A program made the translations under genes and the position numbers. From positions 1 to 37,685 of the forward strand of contig CANFSZ010000022.1 in the NCBI GenBank assembly GCA_947449835.1: a DNA stretch of 37,685 bases. The letters run 5' to 3'. Numbering within the stretch: the first letter of the stretch is position 1; each line of letters begins with the position of its first letter. The notes under the pieces were generated by a model. It was not told the DNA's origin. It did not search any database and saw only the letters and a list, made by a program, of their open reading frames with translations. Source of the stretch: Opitutia bacterium. GTDB lineage: Bacteria; Verrucomicrobiota; Verrucomicrobiia; Opitutales; Opitutaceae. Positions 14,514-29,233 of this stretch are shown piece after piece.

Positions 14514-15066
14514 GAGATTTTACGAGTTGAGTGTAAGTTTTGAAAAAAGGGTGCCGCACGTCGCGGAGGAGCGCGTAAAACACGCTCTCGCTGGGCAAAA
14601 CGTGGGCGCCGGCGTGGCGGAGCGCGGCGAGACAAGCGGCCGCGTCGTCGGGTCGGCGGGCGCCGACGGCATCGCTGAGAATCGTCACAGGCATGCCGGC
14701 GTGGAGGGCGTCGAGCGCGGTCTGGTAGACGCAGATCGGCGTTTCCAGTCCGCACAACAAAAGGTGTTCCGCGGGGGCGACTGCGGCGCGGATGGCGTCA
14801 TCGGCGAGCGCAGAAAAGGTGTCTTTGCCGAGGGCGACGGCGCCCGGTGCGGCGGCGAGTAGTTCGGGCGCCGTGCCGCCGAGCTTGGCGGGCACTTGCT
14901 CGGTAAACACAACGCGCAGGCCGAGCCCGTGCGCGGCGGCGACGGCGAATTCACAGCGGCGTTGCACGCGCGAGCCGTCGGTGATCGCGCGGACGAACAC
15001 CGGTTGCACGTCGATGCAAAGTAGCGCGGTGGCGGCGAGTGGGTCGGCGGACGCTGCGGGGTTCAT
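14506..15066 (-). CDS. Isochorismatase-family (cysteine) hydrolase
   Basis: This 186-residue protein has the isochorismatase/nicotinamidase fold: a buried Asp in LLCIDVQPVF (Asp19), Lys81 in LGKDTFSA and the nucleophile Cys112 in GLETPICVYQTALDAL. Together these match the Asp-Lys-Cys triad of the superfamily. The cis-peptide region before the Cys is conserved. Size and triad resemble YcaC-like and related hydrolases of unknown substrate; true nicotinamidases carry metal-binding His/Asp residues that I do not see. The frame extends further upstream, but the ATG at 15066 overlaps the stop of the preceding metallophosphatase by 4 bp (ATGA), the likely start. Its own stop overlaps the downstream YhaM-like gene by 8 bp. 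Confidence 0.85.
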   Translation of the reverse strand: MNPAASADPLAATALLCIDVQPVFVRAITDGSRVQRRCEFAVAAAHGLGLRVVFTEQVPAKLGGTAPELLAAAPGAVALGKDTFSALADDAIRAAVAPAEHLLLCGLETPICVYQTALDALHAGMPVTILSDAVGARRPDDAAACLAALRHAGAHVLPSESVFYALLRDVRHPFFKTYTQLVKSHG

Positions 15067-15722
15067 GTGAAGTAGCGTTGGCGGGCTTTGACCTGAACGA
15101 AACGCTTTTCGGGCAAAATGAACGCCGTCAAATGTCCGCCCATGACGCAGCCGGTATCGAGGCCGATGGACCATTTCAGTTTATAAATTTCAGGTCGCGG
15201 CGTGTGACCATAGATAACGTAGGGAGGGCCGTTCCAGAGGTCGGCCCAAAATGGCGCGTCGGGAGCATCGGCGCGTTTGCGGGGTTGGCCGTCGCGATCA
15301 ATGACTTGGATGCGGGTCACGACCTCGGCGGGTTGGCGTTGCCAGGGTTGGCCGGGGAGAAATCCGCCGTGCACCAATACGAGATTTAAAGCGGGCTCCT
15401 CGTAAGTGAGGAGCATTTTTTCGAGATACGTCCAATCGTCTGGACGCAGTTGATCGAAGGTTTCCAGATCGTGCTCTTTGATGTATCTGAGGTCACGGGT
15501 GCGGCGGTAATTAAGCAGACGGAGCTCATGGTTGCCCAGAAGCGAGATTGCACGGTGGGCGCGCGCGAGTTCGATCACGCGATGGCTGTCGGGCCCACGG
15601 TTCACGAGATCACCCAAGAGAATGAGCCGGTCGTCAGGCTTGAGCTCAAGGAGCGAAAGGAGTTCGGCAAATTCCTCGTGGCAGCCGTGGATGTCGCCGA
15701 TGGCGATGAGGCGTCCGTTCAT
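15063..15722 (-). CDS. PPP-family metallophosphatase (Ser/Thr phosphatase or Ap4A hydrolase type)
   Basis: This 219-residue protein carries the PPP phosphatase motifs: GDIHGC at 9-14, GDLVNRGPDS at 37-46, LLGNHE at 61-66, LVHGGFLPG in the middle and YGHTPRPE toward the end, coordinating a dinuclear metal centre. Bacterial members include PrpA/PrpB-type protein phosphatases and symmetrical diadenosine tetraphosphatase-like enzymes; the sequence does not settle which. ATG 15722 is chosen because the upstream extension to 15803 runs into the divergent gene and is not family-like. It is the first gene of an overlapping three-gene operon with an isochorismatase-family hydrolase and a YhaM-like protein, suggesting a nucleotide or RNA turnover theme. 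Confidence 0.85.
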   Translation of the reverse strand: MNGRLIAIGDIHGCHEEFAELLSLLELKPDDRLILLGDLVNRGPDSHRVIELARAHRAISLLGNHELRLLNYRRTRDLRYIKEHDLETFDQLRPDDWTYLEKMLLTYEEPALNLVLVHGGFLPGQPWQRQPAEVVTRIQVIDRDGQPRKRADAPDAPFWADLWNGPPYVIYGHTPRPEIYKLKWSIGLDTGCVMGGHLTAFILPEKRFVQVKARQRYFT

Positions 15723-15774
15723 GCGGTGTAAAAGTGCTAGCGTCCGCCCTTCCTCAGAGTAAACACTAAAGGCT
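15723..15774. promoter_or_regulatory. Divergent promoter region
   Basis: This 52-bp gap separates two head-to-head genes and must hold start signals for both. On the plus strand AAAGG lies about 4 bases before ATG 15775, a short but plausible ribosome-binding site. No clear pair of -10/-35 boxes could be assigned. Confidence 0.4.
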
Positions 15775-16380
15775 ATGGAATTGAATTTGCAGCCGCTCGG
15801 CACCGCTTGCTTTGTCTCGGGGCAGACCTTTGCCGCGGGCGAGCCCGTCGCGAGTTACCTCGTGCGCAACGCGAATCTTGAGATCGTACGGTACGATCTG
15901 TTGGCGAGCCAGAAGGCGGCGTTTGCGCCGGCGGGCTTCGTCGCCTGCAGTTGGGTGCATCCGTACAAGCCGCGTGTCGCCGGGGAAAACACCGAGCGCA
16001 CCTTAAAGCTCAACGCCGAGACGCTCTTTTTGGCGCTGGCGGATCCGTCGACTGAGGTGAATGCGGAAAACACGCGTCTGGTGCAATTTCTCGCCTTCAT
16101 GTTGGAGCGCAAAAAAGTTCTGCGACCCAAAGGTCGTAGCTCCGACGGTGAAAAAAACGTCTACGAACACGCGAAGACCAAGCAGCTTTATCAGGTCCCG
16201 AAGGGCGAACTCACGCCGGAATTTTTTGTGCAAGTGCAGGCGCAACTGAGCGTACTCGTGGGCGAGCCTAAGCCGAGAACGACTCTCGCTCCCGCCGCGA
16301 CCGCGCCTGCAGCAGCGGTTGAATCACCTGCGTCCGTCACTACGGCCGAGTCCGCGTCGGCGCCAGCGCCCTCGGCTTGA
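15775..16380 (+). CDS. Conserved-looking protein of unknown function
   Basis: I do not recognise this 201-residue protein. Residues 1-165 look like a compact globular domain: MELNLQPLGTACFVSGQTF, then DLLASQKAAF, then a charged stretch ending RLVQFLAFMLERKKVLRPKG, followed by YEHAKTKQLYQVPKGELTPEFF. The last about 35 residues are Ala/Pro/Thr/Ser-rich and probably disordered. There is no signal peptide or membrane segment, so it is likely cytoplasmic. The short first part, with charged and cysteine-containing beta-like blocks, could be a small binding domain, but no motif is diagnostic. It is divergent from the phosphatase operon and 64 bp upstream of the methyltransferase gene, with which it may be co-transcribed. 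Confidence 0.75.
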   Translation: MELNLQPLGTACFVSGQTFAAGEPVASYLVRNANLEIVRYDLLASQKAAFAPAGFVACSWVHPYKPRVAGENTERTLKLNAETLFLALADPSTEVNAENTRLVQFLAFMLERKKVLRPKGRSSDGEKNVYEHAKTKQLYQVPKGELTPEFFVQVQAQLSVLVGEPKPRTTLAPAATAPAAAVESPASVTTAESASAPAPSA

Positions 16381-22949: not shown

Positions 22950-24275
22950 TTGCGCGGGGCGGTGGGTTTGGCTGAGTGCTTGGCGGTGCTCTGGCTTTAT
23001 CGAATCCTTTTTCCCTTGGCGTTGTGCCTCGCGCTGCCCGCATATTTCCGGCGGGCGTGGCGTCGGGGTGGCTTGCGCGAAAAATTCGGCGAGCGCTTGG
23101 GCGCGCATCCCTGGCAACGGCGGGCGGGGCGGAGCGGACCGTTGATTTGGTTGCAGGCGGTGAGCGTGGGCGAAGTGCTCGCGATCGCGCCGTTGCTCGA
23201 ACAACTGCAACGCGCGGGTGTTCTGGTTTACCTCACGACGACGACGAGCACGGGCTACAAAATCGCCGCCGAGCGGTATGGGCCTTGGGTGGTTGGCGTC
23301 GGGTATTTTCCGGTGGATGCTTGGCCGATCGCGGCGCGCGCGTGGCGGCGGATTGATCCGGATATGGTAATTTTAACCGAGGGCGAGCGCTGGCCGGAAC
23401 ATCTCCAACAGGCGAAACGCCGTGGGGTGCCAGTGATCGCGATCAACGCGCGGCTCTCGGATCGGAGTTTTCGGCGTATGCAATGGTTTCGGCCGGCGGC
23501 GCGGCTCATGTTGGCCGGCGTGGACCGGTGGTTGTGCGGGTCGTCGCAGGATGCGGCGCGCTTGCGCGATCTCGGCGTGGCGGATGCAGCCTTGGTGACG
23601 ACGGGGAACTTGAAATTTGACGTGGCTATCCCGCGCCTCGCGCCAGCAGAGTGGGACGCGTTGCGGCGCGAGTTGGGGTTGCCCGCGGGACTTGTTTTGC
23701 TCGGCTCTTCCACTTGGCCCGGCGAAGAAGCGGCGATGATCGAGGTATTGAAGGCGATGCGGGCCGGCGGACTCGGAGGCTCGCTGTTGCTGGTACCGCG
23801 GCACGCGGAGCGGCGCGGAGAGATCGAGCGTATACTCGTGAAAAGCGGACTGCGGTTTCATTTTCGCTCGCAAGGGCAGGCCGCGGGTGAGGTCGATGTG
23901 AGCGTCGCCGACACGACGGGCGAATTGCGCCGGCTCACGCAGGTGGCGGATTTGGTTTTCGTCGGGAAAAGCCTCCCGCCGCACACGGAAGGACAGACGC
24001 CGCTCGAGGCGGCGGCGTTGGGGCGGGCGATTGTGCTCGGCTCAGGGATGAGCAACTTTCGCGTGATTGCCCATGAACTCATCGAGGCCGGGGCGGCGGT
24101 GCGGGTCGATTCGGTGGAGCAATTGGTGTCGACGGCGCTAGGCGTGTTGACTGAGTCAGGCCGGCGAGAGCAACTCGCGCAGGCCGCGGCGGCTTGGCAT
24201 GCGCGCAATGCCGGCGCGGTGGCGCGCACCTTCGCAATCATCCAAGCGGAGCTCGCGCGTCGTCCCGCCGCTTAG
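22950..24275 (+). CDS. waaA: 3-deoxy-D-manno-octulosonic acid (Kdo) transferase
   Basis: This protein of about 441 residues belongs to glycosyltransferase family 30, which transfers Kdo from CMP-Kdo to lipid A precursor, so the organism makes LPS. It starts with a membrane-anchor segment (LAVLWLYRILFPLALCLALPAYF), then LIWLQAVSVGEVLAIAPLL (general-base Glu region), LTTTTSTGYKIAAERYG, ILTEGERWPEHL, INARLSDRSF, TGNLKFD and, in the C-terminal domain, VFVGKSLPPHTEGQTPLEAAALG. The usual motif ETELWPN reads TEGERWPEH here. No ATG exists at the 5' end; TTG 22950 and several GTG/TTG codons within the next 36 bases are possible starts. Its stop overlaps the stop of the convergent DUF1275 gene by 4 bp. 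Confidence 0.9.
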   Translation: MRGAVGLAECLAVLWLYRILFPLALCLALPAYFRRAWRRGGLREKFGERLGAHPWQRRAGRSGPLIWLQAVSVGEVLAIAPLLEQLQRAGVLVYLTTTTSTGYKIAAERYGPWVVGVGYFPVDAWPIAARAWRRIDPDMVILTEGERWPEHLQQAKRRGVPVIAINARLSDRSFRRMQWFRPAARLMLAGVDRWLCGSSQDAARLRDLGVADAALVTTGNLKFDVAIPRLAPAEWDALRRELGLPAGLVLLGSSTWPGEEAAMIEVLKAMRAGGLGGSLLLVPRHAERRGEIERILVKSGLRFHFRSQGQAAGEVDVSVADTTGELRRLTQVADLVFVGKSLPPHTEGQTPLEAAALGRAIVLGSGMSNFRVIAHELIEAGAAVRVDSVEQLVSTALGVLTESGRREQLAQAAAAWHARNAGAVARTFAIIQAELARRPAA

Positions 24276-24958
24276 GCGCGGACGCGCGGGTGGTGCCGCA
24301 ACTGATAAACGCTGTAAGCGACAGCCGCGACCCCGGTGCCAGTGGCCGGGATGAAAAGGGTAGCGTAGGCGTATGTTTCAAAAAAATACGCACCGACGAT
24401 GCCGCCGCAGAGAAATCCGCTGATGATGATCAAACAGAGGCTGCTTCGGCGGGTGTTGACGGGTAGTCCGCGCAGCCGGTGGCCGATAAAAATACCTAAG
24501 TCCGTAAACATGCCGGAGACGTGCGTGGTGCGCACGACCGAGCCGCTGTAAGTGGTGGCCATGGCGTTTTGCAGCCCGCAAGCGCAGGAGGCGAAATAAT
24601 CTCCGAGGTGGTTTTGGTGGTTGAGCAACGGAACCGCGAGGGCGAGGAGCGCCGATTCGAGCGCGAGGGCGAGGCCGTAGCTGTGTCCGAGTTTGAGGGT
24701 CGAGTCTTGAATGATAAATCCGCTGAGAGCGGTGCCGGCGACGAAGGAAACGATCACGGCCAACAAGTGCAGTGCGTGGGCGCCTCGGGAGGTACCGAGT
24801 GCGGCGCCGAGTAGCGAGGTCGTGCCCGTGAGATGTGTGATCGCTTGATGCTCGAAACCGAGCAGGCCCACGACGTTTACGATGCCCGCAAAAAAAGCCA
24901 GCGCCCAAGCTCCCGTCCAAACCCAACGTGGGAGTTGGTTGATCATGCCCACAATCAT
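24272..24958 (-). CDS. DUF1275 (YoaK family) inner-membrane protein
   Basis: This 228-residue protein has about six hydrophobic segments (for example WALAFFAGIVNVVGLLGF, LLAVIVSFVAGTALSGFII, LALALESALLALAVPLL, LCLIIISGFLCGGIVGAYF). The family blocks GFEHQAITHLTGTTS, QNAMATTYSGSVVRTTHVSG and TDLGIFIG are typical of DUF1275. The function of the family is unknown; it is often called a putative transporter. It is the last gene of the minus-strand lipid operon, 34 bp after the PlcP-like gene, so an involvement in envelope lipid physiology is possible but is inference from position. Two ATG codons near the start (24958 and 12 bases later) are both usable. Confidence 0.85.
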   Translation of the reverse strand: MIVGMINQLPRWVWTGAWALAFFAGIVNVVGLLGFEHQAITHLTGTTSLLGAALGTSRGAHALHLLAVIVSFVAGTALSGFIIQDSTLKLGHSYGLALALESALLALAVPLLNHQNHLGDYFASCACGLQNAMATTYSGSVVRTTHVSGMFTDLGIFIGHRLRGLPVNTRRSSLCLIIISGFLCGGIVGAYFFETYAYATLFIPATGTGVAAVAYSVYQLRHHPRVRA

Positions 24959-24992
24959 ATGTGGGCCGGTTGTTTTCGCGAATTGTTTCTAG

Positions 24993-25790
24993 TCAGGCGG
25001 GGATGAGTTCGGATTCCGGCGTTTCTTCGCTGGGGAGCGGGAAGTCGCGTAAGAAGTCATTGTAATGAATTAATTCAAAGCGCCCGTCGTGGTGTTCGAC
25101 AATGGCGGTGAGCGACTCAACCCAGTCGCCGCTGTTGAGGTAATGGATATCGCCGAGCATTTTATCGGCCGCGGTGTGGATGTGGCCGCACATGACGCCC
25201 AAGCAGTCGCGTGATTTGGCCAGCGCGGCGATGTGTTCCTCGAAATTGGAGACGTGGTTCACGGCTGATTTCACCCGAGCTTTGATGGCTTTGCTGAGTG
25301 ACCAATATTCGAGACCGCGCCACGCGCGCCAAAGGTTGTACGCGCGGTTGAGTTTGAGCAACGCACGGTAGCCCCAATCGCCGAGGTGGGCGAGCCAGAC
25401 GAAATTTTTCGTGACCGTGTCAAAGACGTCGCCGTGCAGTACGAGGTACCGGCCGCGCGGGCCTTCGTGAATGTGCTCCTCAACAATCGTGAGGTTTTCG
25501 AAATCAAGCGGCAGGAACTGCGTAAGAATATCGTCGTGATTGCCGCGGAGGTAGACGACTTGCGTGTCTTTCTTCTCGAGTTTTTTCAGTACGATGCGGA
25601 TGAAACGCGTGTGGGCTTTGGTCCAACTCCCGCCGCGCTGGAGTTGCCAACCGTCGATGATGTCGCCGTTGAGGATGAGTTTTTCGCAGCGCACGTGGCG
25701 CAGAAAATGGTTCACTTCGGCGGCTTTACTTTCGCTGGTGCCGAGGTGGACGTCGGATAGGATAACGGTACGGACGCGGAGCTTGTTCAT
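24993..25790 (-). CDS. PlcP/LpxH-like metallophosphoesterase (candidate phospholipase C)
   Basis: This 265-residue calcineurin-like phosphoesterase has Asp13/His15 (SDVHLG), Asp43 (NGDIIDGW), GNHDD at 83-87, His119 (VLHGDVFD) and GHIHT at 202-206, a complete dinuclear metal site. It is usually filed as UDP-2,3-diacylglucosamine diphosphatase (LpxH, COG2908). However, the HGDVFD block, the EYWSLSKAIKARVKSAVN helix, SNFEEHI and the NSGDWVESLTAIVEH ending match my recollection of PlcP, the phospholipase C that releases diacylglycerol from phospholipids in phosphate-starved alphaproteobacteria, better than that of LpxH. Its neighbours are lipid glycosyltransferases and a lipid kinase, which favours this reading. 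Its ATG overlaps the kinase stop by 4 bp. LpxH-like function remains possible. Confidence 0.82.
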   Translation of the reverse strand: MNKLRVRTVILSDVHLGTSESKAAEVNHFLRHVRCEKLILNGDIIDGWQLQRGGSWTKAHTRFIRIVLKKLEKKDTQVVYLRGNHDDILTQFLPLDFENLTIVEEHIHEGPRGRYLVLHGDVFDTVTKNFVWLAHLGDWGYRALLKLNRAYNLWRAWRGLEYWSLSKAIKARVKSAVNHVSNFEEHIAALAKSRDCLGVMCGHIHTAADKMLGDIHYLNSGDWVESLTAIVEHHDGRFELIHYNDFLRDFPLPSEETPESELIPA

Positions 25791-26731
25791 GGCAATTGAA
25801 GAGCGAACCCGGAGGGAGCGTGATCCTCGACGCAGGCTTGGGCGCGCGAGGTAAGCGGCACGAGGAGCCGCAAGCTTTGAGGGTGCACGCGGACTTCAAG
25901 GCGGGCGCCAGTCGCGTGCGTTTCCCCGTCGGTGTGGACGATGCCAGGGCCCGCGCGCTCGATGAGAAAACGGGAGCCACGGAAGCGCCGGACGGACGGG
26001 CTGTGATCGAGGTTACCGAGAAAAAGTCGGGCGCCTAGCCCAGCGGCACCGAGCAAACTGACGGGGCGGATGGCGATGAGATCGAGTTGGCCATCGTCGA
26101 CGCGGGCGCCGGGGGCGATGAAGGCGCGGTTGCCGTATTGGTCGGAGTTGGCGATGGCGAGGAGCAGGATATCGGTGGTCTCGGTGTGGCCGCCGAGGGT
26201 AATGCGACAGGTCTCGCTGCGACGTTGGCGGAATGCGGTCCAAGCGGTGCGGGCGTACGTGGGCAGACCGCGCGTGGTGAGGCGGTTGAAGCGCTCGCTC
26301 ACATCGGCATCGAGGCCGAAACCCATGGCGTTAAAAAAGGGGCGGCCGTTGACGGAGCCGGTATCAATGGCGGCGATCCGGCCCGTATCGTGCGCGGCGA
26401 GGTGCAAAGCCGCGAGCGGGGCGAGGGGAAGTCCGAGGTGAAGGGCCAGGCCGTTGCCCGAGCCGCAGGGAACGAGCGCGAGTGCGGCCGGCGTGTCGAT
26501 GAGCGCTTGGGCGACCTCGTTCATGGTGCCGTCGCCGCCGATGGCGACGATGCGTTGGCAACCGGCTTGCACGCCGTCACGGGCGAGGACGGTGGCGTGA
26601 CCAGGGCCTTCGGTTGGGTGAAGTTCGGCGTCGAGCGCTTGGCTGCGAATGAAGTCGCGTAATAGCGGCAACAGCCGAGCGCTGCGCGCATGCCGGCCCG
26701 AGACGGGGTTGAGTATGAAACGAATTTTCAT
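25787..26731 (-). CDS. Diacylglycerol/lipid kinase of the YegS/BmrU family
   Basis: This 314-residue protein has the DAG-kinase catalytic fold: ILNPVSGR near the N-terminus, the nucleotide-binding GGDGTMNEV starting at residue 65, PCGSGNGLALHLG and, in the C-terminal beta domain, FFNAMGFGLDADVSERFN. It should phosphorylate a lipid hydroxyl (diacylglycerol, or a sphingoid or ceramide-type lipid) at the inner membrane. Substrate cannot be read from the sequence. It overlaps the upstream glycosyltransferase and the downstream PlcP-like gene by 4 bp each, showing tight translational coupling within the lipid operon. That placement fits a role in returning diacylglycerol to phosphatidic acid, opposing or balancing glycosylation; this is inference. 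Confidence 0.88.
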   Translation of the reverse strand: MKIRFILNPVSGRHARSARLLPLLRDFIRSQALDAELHPTEGPGHATVLARDGVQAGCQRIVAIGGDGTMNEVAQALIDTPAALALVPCGSGNGLALHLGLPLAPLAALHLAAHDTGRIAAIDTGSVNGRPFFNAMGFGLDADVSERFNRLTTRGLPTYARTAWTAFRQRRSETCRITLGGHTETTDILLLAIANSDQYGNRAFIAPGARVDDGQLDLIAIRPVSLLGAAGLGARLFLGNLDHSPSVRRFRGSRFLIERAGPGIVHTDGETHATGARLEVRVHPQSLRLLVPLTSRAQACVEDHAPSGFALQLP

Positions 26732-27882
26732 AGCAACGGGGCAACCGTCGGGGCGGCGGTTTTTTCGCGGGAGGCGCTGGCGGCCATAAGGTGTCGGGCA
26801 ATCGCGTTAGCTGCGTCGTTGCGCACGATGGGGGCGAGGGCGTTGCGCCATTTCAGCCAGACGGCGCCGCGGTCGGCGAAGGCCTGGCGTAGGCTTTGAA
26901 TCACTGCGGTGGGGGTCGTCGCCAAGGCGCCGGCGCCGGTGCGGCGTAGGAGCTCGTAGTTGCCCTCTTCTTGGCCGGGGACGATTTGGTTTACAATCAT
27001 CGGGCAACGCGCGGCGATGGCCTCTTGGGTGGTCGCGCCGCCGGCTTTGCTGATCACGACATGATGCGTCATGAGCAGGTGCGGAATCTGGTCGGTCCAA
27101 CCGAGGATATAAGCGGGCAGGGCGCGGCCGGCGGCAAGTCGGGTAAGCTCGGTTTGGAGCGCGGCGTCGCGGCCCACGGCGATGGTGATTTCCCAAGCCG
27201 TTTCGGCGAGTAGCAGGCGAGCGGTCTCGGCGGCGTGATTCGTGCCAGAGTTAATGATGTAAAGAATCCGTGGGGCGGAGCTAGCACTCGTAAGGTCGGG
27301 AGGCGCAAGCCGGCTGGCGTAATCGCTAAAAAATGCCGGAACCGGGAAGCCTGTGACGTGCAGATCTTCGGGATCAATTCCCGCCGCCCGCATGACGGCA
27401 GCAGAATCGGGATTGGGCACAAACCAACCAGCGGCGCCGGCACGCCACCAAAGCGAGTTGATGCTGATCGAATCCGTGACGACGTTGAAATGTGGCGGGA
27501 GGCTTTGGCCCTCGTTTTGCAGACGCGCGATGAGGAACGCGTAAACGGGATACGTGCTGCAAATGACGTCGGGTTTTTCCTCAGCGAGAATGCGCGCGAG
27601 CAGGCGACGTTCGCGGCCGAGGAGCCAAAAACAGCGGGGCACGAGGTTGGAGCGATCGATCCAAGCGTAGAGGCTGCTCCAGAGTCGCGGGGCGCCGTTG
27701 ATGGTCGCGATGTAGGCGCGGCGACTGATTTGATTGAACCGCGGGCGCGACATGGCGAATAGATCGACCACCCGCGCGGTGCCAGGCCCGTAATTCGTGT
27801 CGCAAGCGGCGGCGAGCGCGCGAGCGGCGGCGTTGTGACCTTCGCCGTAGCCGGCGGTTAAAATTAGAATCCGAGCGGGCAT
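26728..27882 (-). CDS. MGDG-synthase/UgtP-like glycosyltransferase (GT28)
   Basis: This 384-residue protein resembles monogalactosyldiacylglycerol synthase and processive diacylglycerol glucosyltransferases. The N-terminal domain has ILILTAGYGEGHNAAARAL (acceptor and Gly-rich loop) and PDVICSTYPVYAFL; the C-terminal GT28 domain has ILGWTDQIPHLL, VVISKAGGATTQEAIAA and NQIVPGQEEGNYELL, the nucleotide-sugar binding region. It would transfer a hexose from UDP-sugar (or a related donor) to diacylglycerol at the cytoplasmic membrane face. MurG is a distant relative but lacks the GEGHNAAA-type start. It follows the GT4 gene by 6 bp and overlaps the kinase gene by 4 bp. Sugar identity and linkage are unknown. 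Confidence 0.87.
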   Translation of the reverse strand: MPARILILTAGYGEGHNAAARALAAACDTNYGPGTARVVDLFAMSRPRFNQISRRAYIATINGAPRLWSSLYAWIDRSNLVPRCFWLLGRERRLLARILAEEKPDVICSTYPVYAFLIARLQNEGQSLPPHFNVVTDSISINSLWWRAGAAGWFVPNPDSAAVMRAAGIDPEDLHVTGFPVPAFFSDYASRLAPPDLTSASSAPRILYIINSGTNHAAETARLLLAETAWEITIAVGRDAALQTELTRLAAGRALPAYILGWTDQIPHLLMTHHVVISKAGGATTQEAIAARCPMIVNQIVPGQEEGNYELLRRTGAGALATTPTAVIQSLRQAFADRGAVWLKWRNALAPIVRNDAANAIARHLMAASASREKTAAPTVAPLL

Positions 27883-27888
27883 GAAGGG

Positions 27889-29055
27889 TTATTGGCTAAA
27901 ATTGGAGTGTGGCGTCGTGTCGCGAGATTCGGCGATCACGGCGGCGAGATCAGCTTCGAAGCCGGCGATGACCGATGACCACGATTGCGTCTCGACGCTC
28001 GCGCGCGCGGCCAGACGCAGTTGCTGACGCAGCTCGGGCTCGCAAGCGAGTTGGACGGCGGCCGCGATGAGGGCGGCGGGTTGATCGCAGGGAACGCTGA
28101 GTCCGTTTTCGCCATGTCGGATAAATTTTAAAGCCGCTGCGTAGTTGAAGCCGGCGACAGCGAGTCCGCTGGCCATGGCCTCGGTCAGGACATTACCAAA
28201 AGTCTCGGTGAGACTGGCGTGAATGTAGATATCGGCGGAGGCGTAATAACGACCGATTTCCTCGCGCGAGAAAAAGCCCGCAAACCTGCACTCGGGGTGT
28301 TCGCGCATAAGCCTTGCTTTGAGCGGACCGTCGCCGGCTAGGACGAAACGACAGCGAGGATTCGCGGCGCGCATGGCGTCAAACGCGCGGAAAACGAGTT
28401 CGTAGTTTTTCTCGGCAGCCATGCGGCCGACGTGGAGCACCACCGGCGTCTCGTCCTCGGCGCCCCAGCTAGTGCGAAGTTCGCGCGAGCGGCGCGAGGG
28501 ATCGAATTGGCGGGTGTCGACCCCGCGTGAGAGAACGGCAAGATCGCGAAAGCCATACGTGGCAAGTTCGGCGCACAGCTCGGGAGTGGGGGCGAAGGTG
28601 CGTTGCGTGCGGTTGTGCACGTAACGCAGCCAGGCCAGCGTGAGACGGTGAAACGCGCCGTAGCCGTAGGAGCGTGTGTACGTGTGGAAATTGGTGTGAA
28701 AACTCGAGCTCACGGGCAGGCCTAGTTCGCGTGCGGCGGTGACAGCCGTAGCGCCGAGCGGTCCTTCCGTGGCGACGTGCACCAGATCGGGCGGGTCTTC
28801 GCGCCAAAGTTTTTTAAGCGTGCGACCCGCCGGTAGACCGAGTCGCAGCAGCGGGTAACCGGGAATCGGCAAGCCGGGTAAACTCATCACGCGGTAGGAA
28901 ACATCGCTCTCCGGCTTAGGAAGATCGTCACGGCGGGGCCGATAAATCGTGAGCTCATGCCCGCGCGCGGAAAGCTCACGCGCGATCACTCCAAAGGTCA
29001 TCGCGACGCCGTTGACCTCCGGAGGAAACGTTTCGGTGACGAGGGCGAGTTTCAC
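27889..29055 (-). CDS. GT4-family glycosyltransferase, probably lipid-directed
   Basis: This 388-residue GT-B glycosyltransferase begins KLALVTETFPPEVNGVAMT, then HVATEGPLGATAV and VSSSFHTNFHTYTRSYGYG. The C-terminal GT4 domain has LHVGRMAAEKNYE, VLAGDGPL, YIHASLTETFGNVLTEAMASG with the EX7E nucleotide-sugar motif, and ENGLSVPCD. N-termini of this type occur in SqdX, in glucosyl/glucuronosyl-diacylglycerol synthases and in some mannosyltransferases of lipid carriers. I place the start at GTG 29055, since the family begins at KLALV; the 58-residue upstream extension to 29229 is basic, not family-like and crosses the divergent promoter. It heads the lipid operon; acceptor and donor are not provable from sequence. 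Confidence 0.87.
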   Translation of the reverse strand: MKLALVTETFPPEVNGVAMTFGVIARELSARGHELTIYRPRRDDLPKPESDVSYRVMSLPGLPIPGYPLLRLGLPAGRTLKKLWREDPPDLVHVATEGPLGATAVTAARELGLPVSSSFHTNFHTYTRSYGYGAFHRLTLAWLRYVHNRTQRTFAPTPELCAELATYGFRDLAVLSRGVDTRQFDPSRRSRELRTSWGAEDETPVVLHVGRMAAEKNYELVFRAFDAMRAANPRCRFVLAGDGPLKARLMREHPECRFAGFFSREEIGRYYASADIYIHASLTETFGNVLTEAMASGLAVAGFNYAAALKFIRHGENGLSVPCDQPAALIAAAVQLACEPELRQQLRLAARASVETQSWSSVIAGFEADLAAVIAESRDTTPHSNFSQ

Positions 29056-29233
29056 GTAAAATTTTAATATGCGTTGCGCGGGCGAGTGTCGTGCTACCGG
29101 TACATTTAATCGGTCTGCATGGCGAAATCGTGGCGGTTGCGTTACGATTTGGCGAAAGTCGCGGCGCGCACTTTGATCGTAATTCGTGGTTGCAGAGCGT
29201 GGGGTAGATTCTAGTTTCGATACTTTCACGCGA
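29056..29233. promoter_or_regulatory. Divergent regulatory region between the lipid operon and the SNF2 helicase
   Basis: This gap of about 178 bp must promote the minus-strand lipid operon and the plus-strand helicase. I searched by eye for a tandem CTGTCAT-type Pho box, which a phosphate-starvation operon might carry, and found none. AT-rich AAAATTTTAATAT at about 29057-29070 sits right before the GT4 start. No firm -10/-35 pairs were assigned. Confidence 0.45.

Follow-up and report, generated by a model that had tools for sequence, protein, structure and literature searches.

A predicted Pho-regulon operon for membrane-lipid remodelling in Opitutaceae, combining PlcP with two glycosyltransferases and a lipid kinase

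Introduction

Marine bacteria are known to have operons that join the phospholipase C PlcP to a family 4 glycosyltransferase (GT4) and carry Pho boxes; one single-cell genome of a verrucomicrobium has also been noted to encode a PlcP homologue (PMC4796936; here and below, comparisons concern the accessible parts of the cited reports). Here we analyze a minus-strand operon with the gene order GT4-GT28-kinase-plcP on a 37,685-bp stretch of DNA (the window), which is contig C22 (CANFSZ010000022.1) of the draft genome of an Opitutia bacterium (3.02 Mb, 156 contigs, 86.7% complete). The proteobacterial plcP-agt operon likewise has PlcP adjoining GT4, a Pho box or phosphate control and a glycolipid as product (PMC4796936, PMC9239053, PMC8231724). 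The window differs in that the GT4 gene comes first, that GT28 and kinase genes lie between it and plcP, that the gene ends overlap, that the host belongs to the Verrucomicrobiota, and that a glutamate of GT4 replaces an aspartate of the Agt clade.

Other described systems share parts of this gene set. PlcP is reported absent from verrucomicrobial methanotrophs, and in type Ia methanotrophs plcP lies near a putative diacylglycerol (DAG) glycosyltransferase likened to the Bacillus subtilis enzyme (PMC9239053), whereas the window operon has both a GT4 and a GT28 enzyme plus a kinase. The phosphate islands of HIMB59 hold pst genes, PhoR-PhoB, a DAG kinase, a glycosyltransferase and an LpxH-labelled gene, which its authors read as a lipid A enzyme; the accessible text describes neither a four-gene operon nor a GT28 (PMC10734472). 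In Pseudomonas putida BIRD-1, PlcP and the DAG kinase DagK both rise under phosphate depletion; the accessible text does not describe them as one operon or contain the word "glycosyltransferase", and DagK is not among the listed proteins absent from a phoBR mutant, though the discussion calls these PHO-dependent (PMC5082522).

We found neither the four-gene operon nor a fusion of GT4 to PlcP described in the open-access literature searched, which was judged mostly from titles and the opening lines of abstracts, subscription journals and preprints falling mostly outside. PlcP-glycosyltransferase pairs are thus known, while the four-gene layout and the GT4-PlcP fusion appear to be new. An earlier first-pass annotation, made from the letters of the window, had considered the five-gene form of the operon probably undescribed. 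For the four-gene layout that claim appears to hold, though it is smaller than first stated, because reports from other phyla already cover PlcP with a glycosyltransferase, and also pst genes joined by a DAG kinase, a glycosyltransferase and a gene labelled LpxH.

Results

The operon begins with the GT4 gene (27889-29055, minus strand, GTG start), whose product is likely a diacylglycerol glycosyltransferase according to Pfam, NCBIfam and homologues fused to PlcP. It is followed after a 6-bp gap by a GT28 gene for an MGDG-synthase/UgtP-like lipid glycosyltransferase (26728-27882), by a gene for a YegS/DgkB-type soluble lipid kinase (25787-26731) that overlaps the GT28 gene by 4 bp, and by plcP (24993-25790), which overlaps the kinase gene by 4 bp and encodes a calcineurin-like phosphoesterase of the PlcP type of intracellular phospholipase C, as judged by identity and by a tree. 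A fifth minus-strand gene, for a DUF1275 membrane protein (24272-24958), lies 34 bp beyond plcP. All five open reading frames and their spacing are as first annotated, and the families then named are borne out by Pfam matches above curated cut-offs. An alternative, longer in-frame GTG start for the GT4 gene exists at 29229; we prefer 29055 because of the starts of homologues and the promoter site described below.

A comparison of synteny, asked for at first pass, showed that the cluster recurs in relatives of the source genome. Among named records, the window plcP is matched best by Opitutaceae and Opitutae genomes. PlcP is encoded in 35 of 41 genomes of the window's family (E 1e-60) and in 88 of 188 genomes of the class (E 1e-10), in only some of them with partner genes alongside. 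Synteny in the family was read from 34 plcP loci, including the window and leaving out of the 35 the partial gene at a contig edge in G209. The order GT4-GT28-kinase-PlcP is found in 12 of these 34, which makes the operon more than a chance arrangement. The remaining orders are GT4-GT28-PlcP (four loci, G093 being counted here), GT4-PlcP-GT28 (four), GT4-kinase-PlcP (three), kinase-PlcP (two), PlcP-GT28, GT4-PlcP (one each) and GT28-kinase-PlcP (one, on a contig only 4.1 kb long). At least one of the GT4, GT28 and kinase genes thus stands beside plcP in 28 of 34 loci, and these counts indicate that the GT28 and kinase genes vary separately around a GT4-PlcP core. Of the class loci L043-L102, 60 in all, 35 have a partner no more than 4.5 kb from plcP, and in the other 25 none was found.

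The DUF1275 gene, whose product matches PF06912 at 114.6 bits, above the curated cut-off, does not share this conservation. The first-pass annotation had counted it as a fifth member of the module. With a model built on the single window sequence, no DUF1275 gene turned up less than 4.5 kb from plcP in any of 147 loci; of 24 loci read separately, only that of the same-genus genome G200 has one at this distance. We therefore reject it as a conserved-module gene outside the genus; it is a genus-specific addition, possibly co-transcribed with the operon.

In 15 loci, GT4 and PlcP form a single uninterrupted frame of 586-671 residues with GT4 first, the GT4 part matching weakly (56 bits) in L081. 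Nine of these loci are in genomes of one family (f8), in which a tenth locus, L102, shows no GT4. The six in named records are from Rubritalea marina DSM 17716, Persicirhabdus sediminis KCTC 22039, Verrucomicrobiaceae bacterium E54, one uncultured Verrucomicrobiales metagenome-assembled genome (MAG) and two MAGs labelled Akkermansia muciniphila, and the fusion loci are mostly of the Akkermansia/Rubritalea type. An apparent fusion in G058, a 695-residue stop-to-stop frame, was rejected since the frame matched PlcP only. Separately, in an Oxalobacteraceae MAG (L191:5355-7337) PlcP is fused to an MGDG_synth/GT28 domain and lies behind an Acetyltransf_5 gene; Acetyltransf_5 is a domain found in OlsB.

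The sequences of the two glycosyltransferases suggest lipid substrates. GT4 matches Glyco_transf_4 (110.4 bits) and Glycos_transf_1 (103.9 bits) above the curated cut-offs. In an NCBIfam scan made with the longer start, its best match is NF053787 (134.7 bits), a model of N-acetylglucosaminyl-phosphatidylglycerol synthase, and its second is the monoglucosyl-DAG synthase model NF049988 (96.6 bits), both scores being under the equivalog cut-offs. Its GRMAAEKN is one residue off GRVAxEKN, the published motif of the Agt clade, in whose verified enzyme GTcp the aspartate of TDTFG is essential and the substitution D256E costs more than 90% of activity (PMC8231724). The corresponding stretch is TETFG in all six verrucomicrobial sequences aligned and TDTFG in a Sphingomonas homologue. 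Because of TETFG in place of TDTFG we do not class GT4 in the Agt clade; it probably works like an Agt-clade enzyme all the same. GT28 matches MGDG_synth at 71.7 bits (cut-off 25), narrowly misses the C-terminal GT28 model (19.7 against 22), scores 160 bits on the UgtP equivalog model, under its cut-off of 500, and finds the processive DAG beta-glucosyltransferase 9wde and the plant MGD1 4wyi in the PDB. Models of betaine-lipid (PF11899) and OlsB-type (PF13444) enzymes have no match in the 86.7%-complete draft; betaine and ornithine lipids were thus set aside as products in the source genome, leaving glycolipids as the likely product. In two other loci, L105 and L148, plcP is followed by another type of glycosyltransferase, MJ1255-like or Glyco_trans_1_3.

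The kinase matches DAGK_cat (90.6 bits, cut-off 23.6) and YegS_C (82.0 bits, cut-off 27), falls just under the cut-off of the TIGR00147 subfamily model (114.7 against 118.65 bits), and resembles DgkB and YegS in the PDB. It is the sole DAGK_cat match in the draft genome and likely turns DAG into phosphatidic acid. YegS-like kinase genes also occur within 1.3 kb of plcP in the Bacteroidota loci L149, L150 and L162, on the opposite strand in L150.

These matches also leave room for an acceptor other than plain DAG, GT4 and GT28 acting on phosphatidylglycerol or ceramide and the kinase being a ceramide or phosphatidylglycerol kinase. Such a reading would account for the best NCBIfam match of GT4, under its cut-off as that match is, and for two traits of the kinase: its weak PDB matches to sphingosine kinase 1 (E about 3e-4), and a GSGN where DAG kinases usually have GTxND. 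We consider it unlikely in view of the second NCBIfam match of GT4, of the DAG enzymes matched by GT28, and of the association of these genes with PlcP in both operon and fusion; plain DAG is the acceptor assumed in what follows.

A link to phosphate, suggested at first pass, emerged from both the promoter and the neighbourhood of the pst genes. In the source genome, the pst locus comprises a Porin_5 gene, genes for PstS, PstC, PstA and PstB (all four above NCBIfam cut-offs), a response regulator and a histidine kinase, and the pst loci of other genomes were found by similarity to these genes. The motif was first sought in 22 upstream regions of pst genes from 24 loci (L199 was too short, and L229 had no pstS or porin match), with 25 restarts for the real set and six for each of four shuffled sets, which favours the real set; the final tests are independent of that comparison. 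Eight pstS-anchored regions, in which the sampler settled on what we judged to be coding-like stretches, were dropped, and the motif was rebuilt from 14 porin-anchored ones. The resulting 28-bp motif of three 11-bp repeats was thus learned only from porin-pstSCAB upstream regions of the family.

Scored across the whole window (75,316 positions), this motif has its top site at 29118-29145 of the minus strand, with 17.5 bits against 10.0 for the runner-up. The site occupies the stretch 63-90 bp ahead of the GT4 start codon. This predicted Pho box consists of three direct repeats with the half-sites GTAAC, GCCAC and GCCAT, spaced 11 bp apart. We then compared 39 GT4 promoters, selected on locus number among genomes of the family and named records of Opitutaceae/Opitutae type or similar. 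A few of them may come from neighbouring families, some named records may duplicate species, and relatedness makes the counts non-independent. Against 2,340 dinucleotide shuffles, 31 of the 39 score above the 99% point, 33 above the 95% point and 24 above all shuffles. Starts of other genes in the same loci exceed the 99% point in two of 102 cases (GT28 1/32, kinase 1/24, PlcP 0/37, kdtA 0/9). The GT4 promoter thus carries a site like those of pst operons, the mark taken here for a Pho-regulon promoter. Scans for sigma-70 promoters and terminators gave about as many sites as shuffled sequences.

The pst genes themselves tend to lie near plcP in relatives. Both plcP and pstB occur in 33 family genomes; the two are 5.5-17 kb apart in 11, 39 kb apart in one, far apart on one contig in three and on different contigs in 18, where chance would place about 0.3 of 33 within 20 kb (40 kb of about 4 Mb, times 33, our own estimate ignoring relatedness). 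In G015, about 0.4 kb after plcP and on the same strand, a porin gene is followed by pstS, pstC, pstA, pstB and genes for a PhoB-like regulator and a histidine kinase.

Glycolipid synthesis might instead be constitutive or follow another cue, the repeats being bound by a different OmpR/PhoB-type regulator without phosphate as the trigger. Direct repeats with about 11-bp spacing are not peculiar to PhoB, being bound by further regulators of the OmpR family, and in the window's genus the pst genes and plcP are on different contigs. We regard this as improbable, given that the motif came only from pst-operon promoters, that pst linkage recurs, and that of the six family genomes lacking plcP, five have no pstB match either at the thresholds applied.

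The phosphoesterase at the end of the operon is most likely, from its sequence, a PlcP-type phospholipase C rather than LpxH, as the first-pass annotation had it. Its Metallophos match (46.8 bits) is above the curated cut-off, and it is 41% identical over 261 amino acids to a Sinorhizobium meliloti protein encoded beside acyl-homoserine lactone (AHL)-synthase and LuxR genes. From these neighbours, we take that gene (CP090106.1, 2072091-2072936) to be the verified plcP SMc00171, and its 3.72-Mb record (L104), labelled pSymB, to be a probably mislabelled chromosome. Escherichia coli LpxH matches the window protein only in part (22% identity, 33.5 bits). The LpxH equivalog model NF003743 gives the window protein 34 bits against a cut-off of 134, and E. 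coli LpxH, as a control, 364 (389 on TIGR01854); S. meliloti PlcP scores 38 and 39 bits on the two models, similar to the window protein. A 54-sequence tree separates E. coli LpxH from all others on a very long branch, whose placement is unsure with a midpoint root and a single LpxH. Residues D13, H15, D43, N84, H119, H203 and H205, presumably the calcineurin-like metal ligands, are invariant in 17 aligned sequences, E. coli LpxH among them. An LpxI gene is present in the source genome (G000:C11:54541-54918, E 2.1e-41), as in 184 of 188 class genomes; the window phosphoesterase is thus not the sole candidate for the lipid A pyrophosphatase, and lipid A synthesis need not depend on it.

A reading of the phosphoesterase as an LpxH-type enzyme of lipid A synthesis, with the adjoining glycosyltransferases acting on lipopolysaccharide, could draw on the automatic annotation of homologues as UDP-2,3-diacylglucosamine diphosphatase in 24 of 31 plasmid records (seven have no feature there) and on the neighbouring kdtA/WaaA gene (22950-24275, convergent, overlapping the DUF1275 stop by 4 bp). 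This reading is very improbable and was rejected on model score, identity, tree and the presence of LpxI; kdtA, moreover, is on the opposite strand, and its start region passes the motif threshold in none of nine loci. S. meliloti plcP itself carries the same diphosphatase annotation; such labels can hide plcP and distort readings of lipid A and phosphate genes.

The window also carries an SNF2-type helicase gene, which diverges from the operon on its upstream side, and at 15066-15803, away from the operon, a second gene for a calcineurin-like phosphoesterase. Elsewhere, a PlcP homologue of Pelagibacter phage Mosig (L107:1903-3738, 41.5% identity) adjoins a putative phosphate ABC transporter gene, a candidate phage-borne phosphate pair. 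A gene with a CHAD domain, which is associated with polyphosphate, comes after plcP in a verrucomicrobial genome of more distant kinship (L083:6998-8676), and in Mitsuaria sp. 7 (L108:3923-8706) a PlcP homologue is followed by ppk1 and then by a Ppx/GppA gene on the other strand.

Discussion

Our analysis indicates that the window most likely carries a Pho-regulon operon that would remodel membrane lipids by removing phosphate from phospholipids and putting sugars on instead, an exchange that the kinase could reverse. Under scarce phosphate, PhoB would bind the three-repeat predicted Pho box upstream of the GT4 gene and turn the operon on. PlcP would strip the phosphate-bearing head group from phospholipids, and GT4 and GT28 would glycosylate the resulting DAG to phosphorus-free glycolipids, one of them plausibly making a monoglycosyl lipid that the other extends or complements. 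At the same branch point, the YegS-like kinase could convert surplus DAG into phosphatidic acid, keeping anionic phospholipid or reversing the swap. We infer these enzyme activities, which sugars are added and in what order, the direction in which the kinase works and the binding of PhoB at the site; the observed basis is gene content and its conservation, the PlcP-like sequence, the pst-like promoter site, the pst linkage in relatives and the GT4-PlcP fusion. The remodelling interpretation proposed at first pass is supported by these features and by the LpxI gene elsewhere in the genome.

Several observations weigh against this interpretation. A DAG kinase consumes phosphate, which is odd inside a phosphate-saving operon, and the genome also has a gene for a DgkA-type kinase outside the operon. 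GT4 has a glutamate where GTcp has its essential aspartate. The response regulator beside the pst genes best fits the PhoB model, yet at 248 bits against a cut-off of 296.2, and the pst genes and plcP are on different contigs in both the window's genome and G200. Compared with 2,340 random windows of the same loci, controls that still contained true sites, 33 of the 39 GT4 promoters rank in the top 5% but 18 in the top 1%; beyond the family the motif shows no clear enrichment (7 of 33 reach the top 5% and 1 of 33 the top 1%). Finally, plcP stands without any partner in 6 of 34 family loci, and none lies near it in any of the 20 class loci farther off, L083-L102.

We also put forward, tentatively and as something short of probable, that the operon is a Pho-controlled cassette for the DAG branch point, reversible from one promoter, and that the Akkermansia/Rubritalea-type fusion is a bifunctional enzyme that may pass DAG directly between its active sites.

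Pho-driven lipid remodelling is known mainly in proteobacteria, and the operon described here would extend it to the Opitutaceae and related Verrucomicrobiota with a richer set of enzymes. The role of the kinase and the fused enzyme could be studied in cultured relatives such as Geminisphaera colitermitum TAV2, R. marina DSM 17716 and P. sediminis KCTC 22039.

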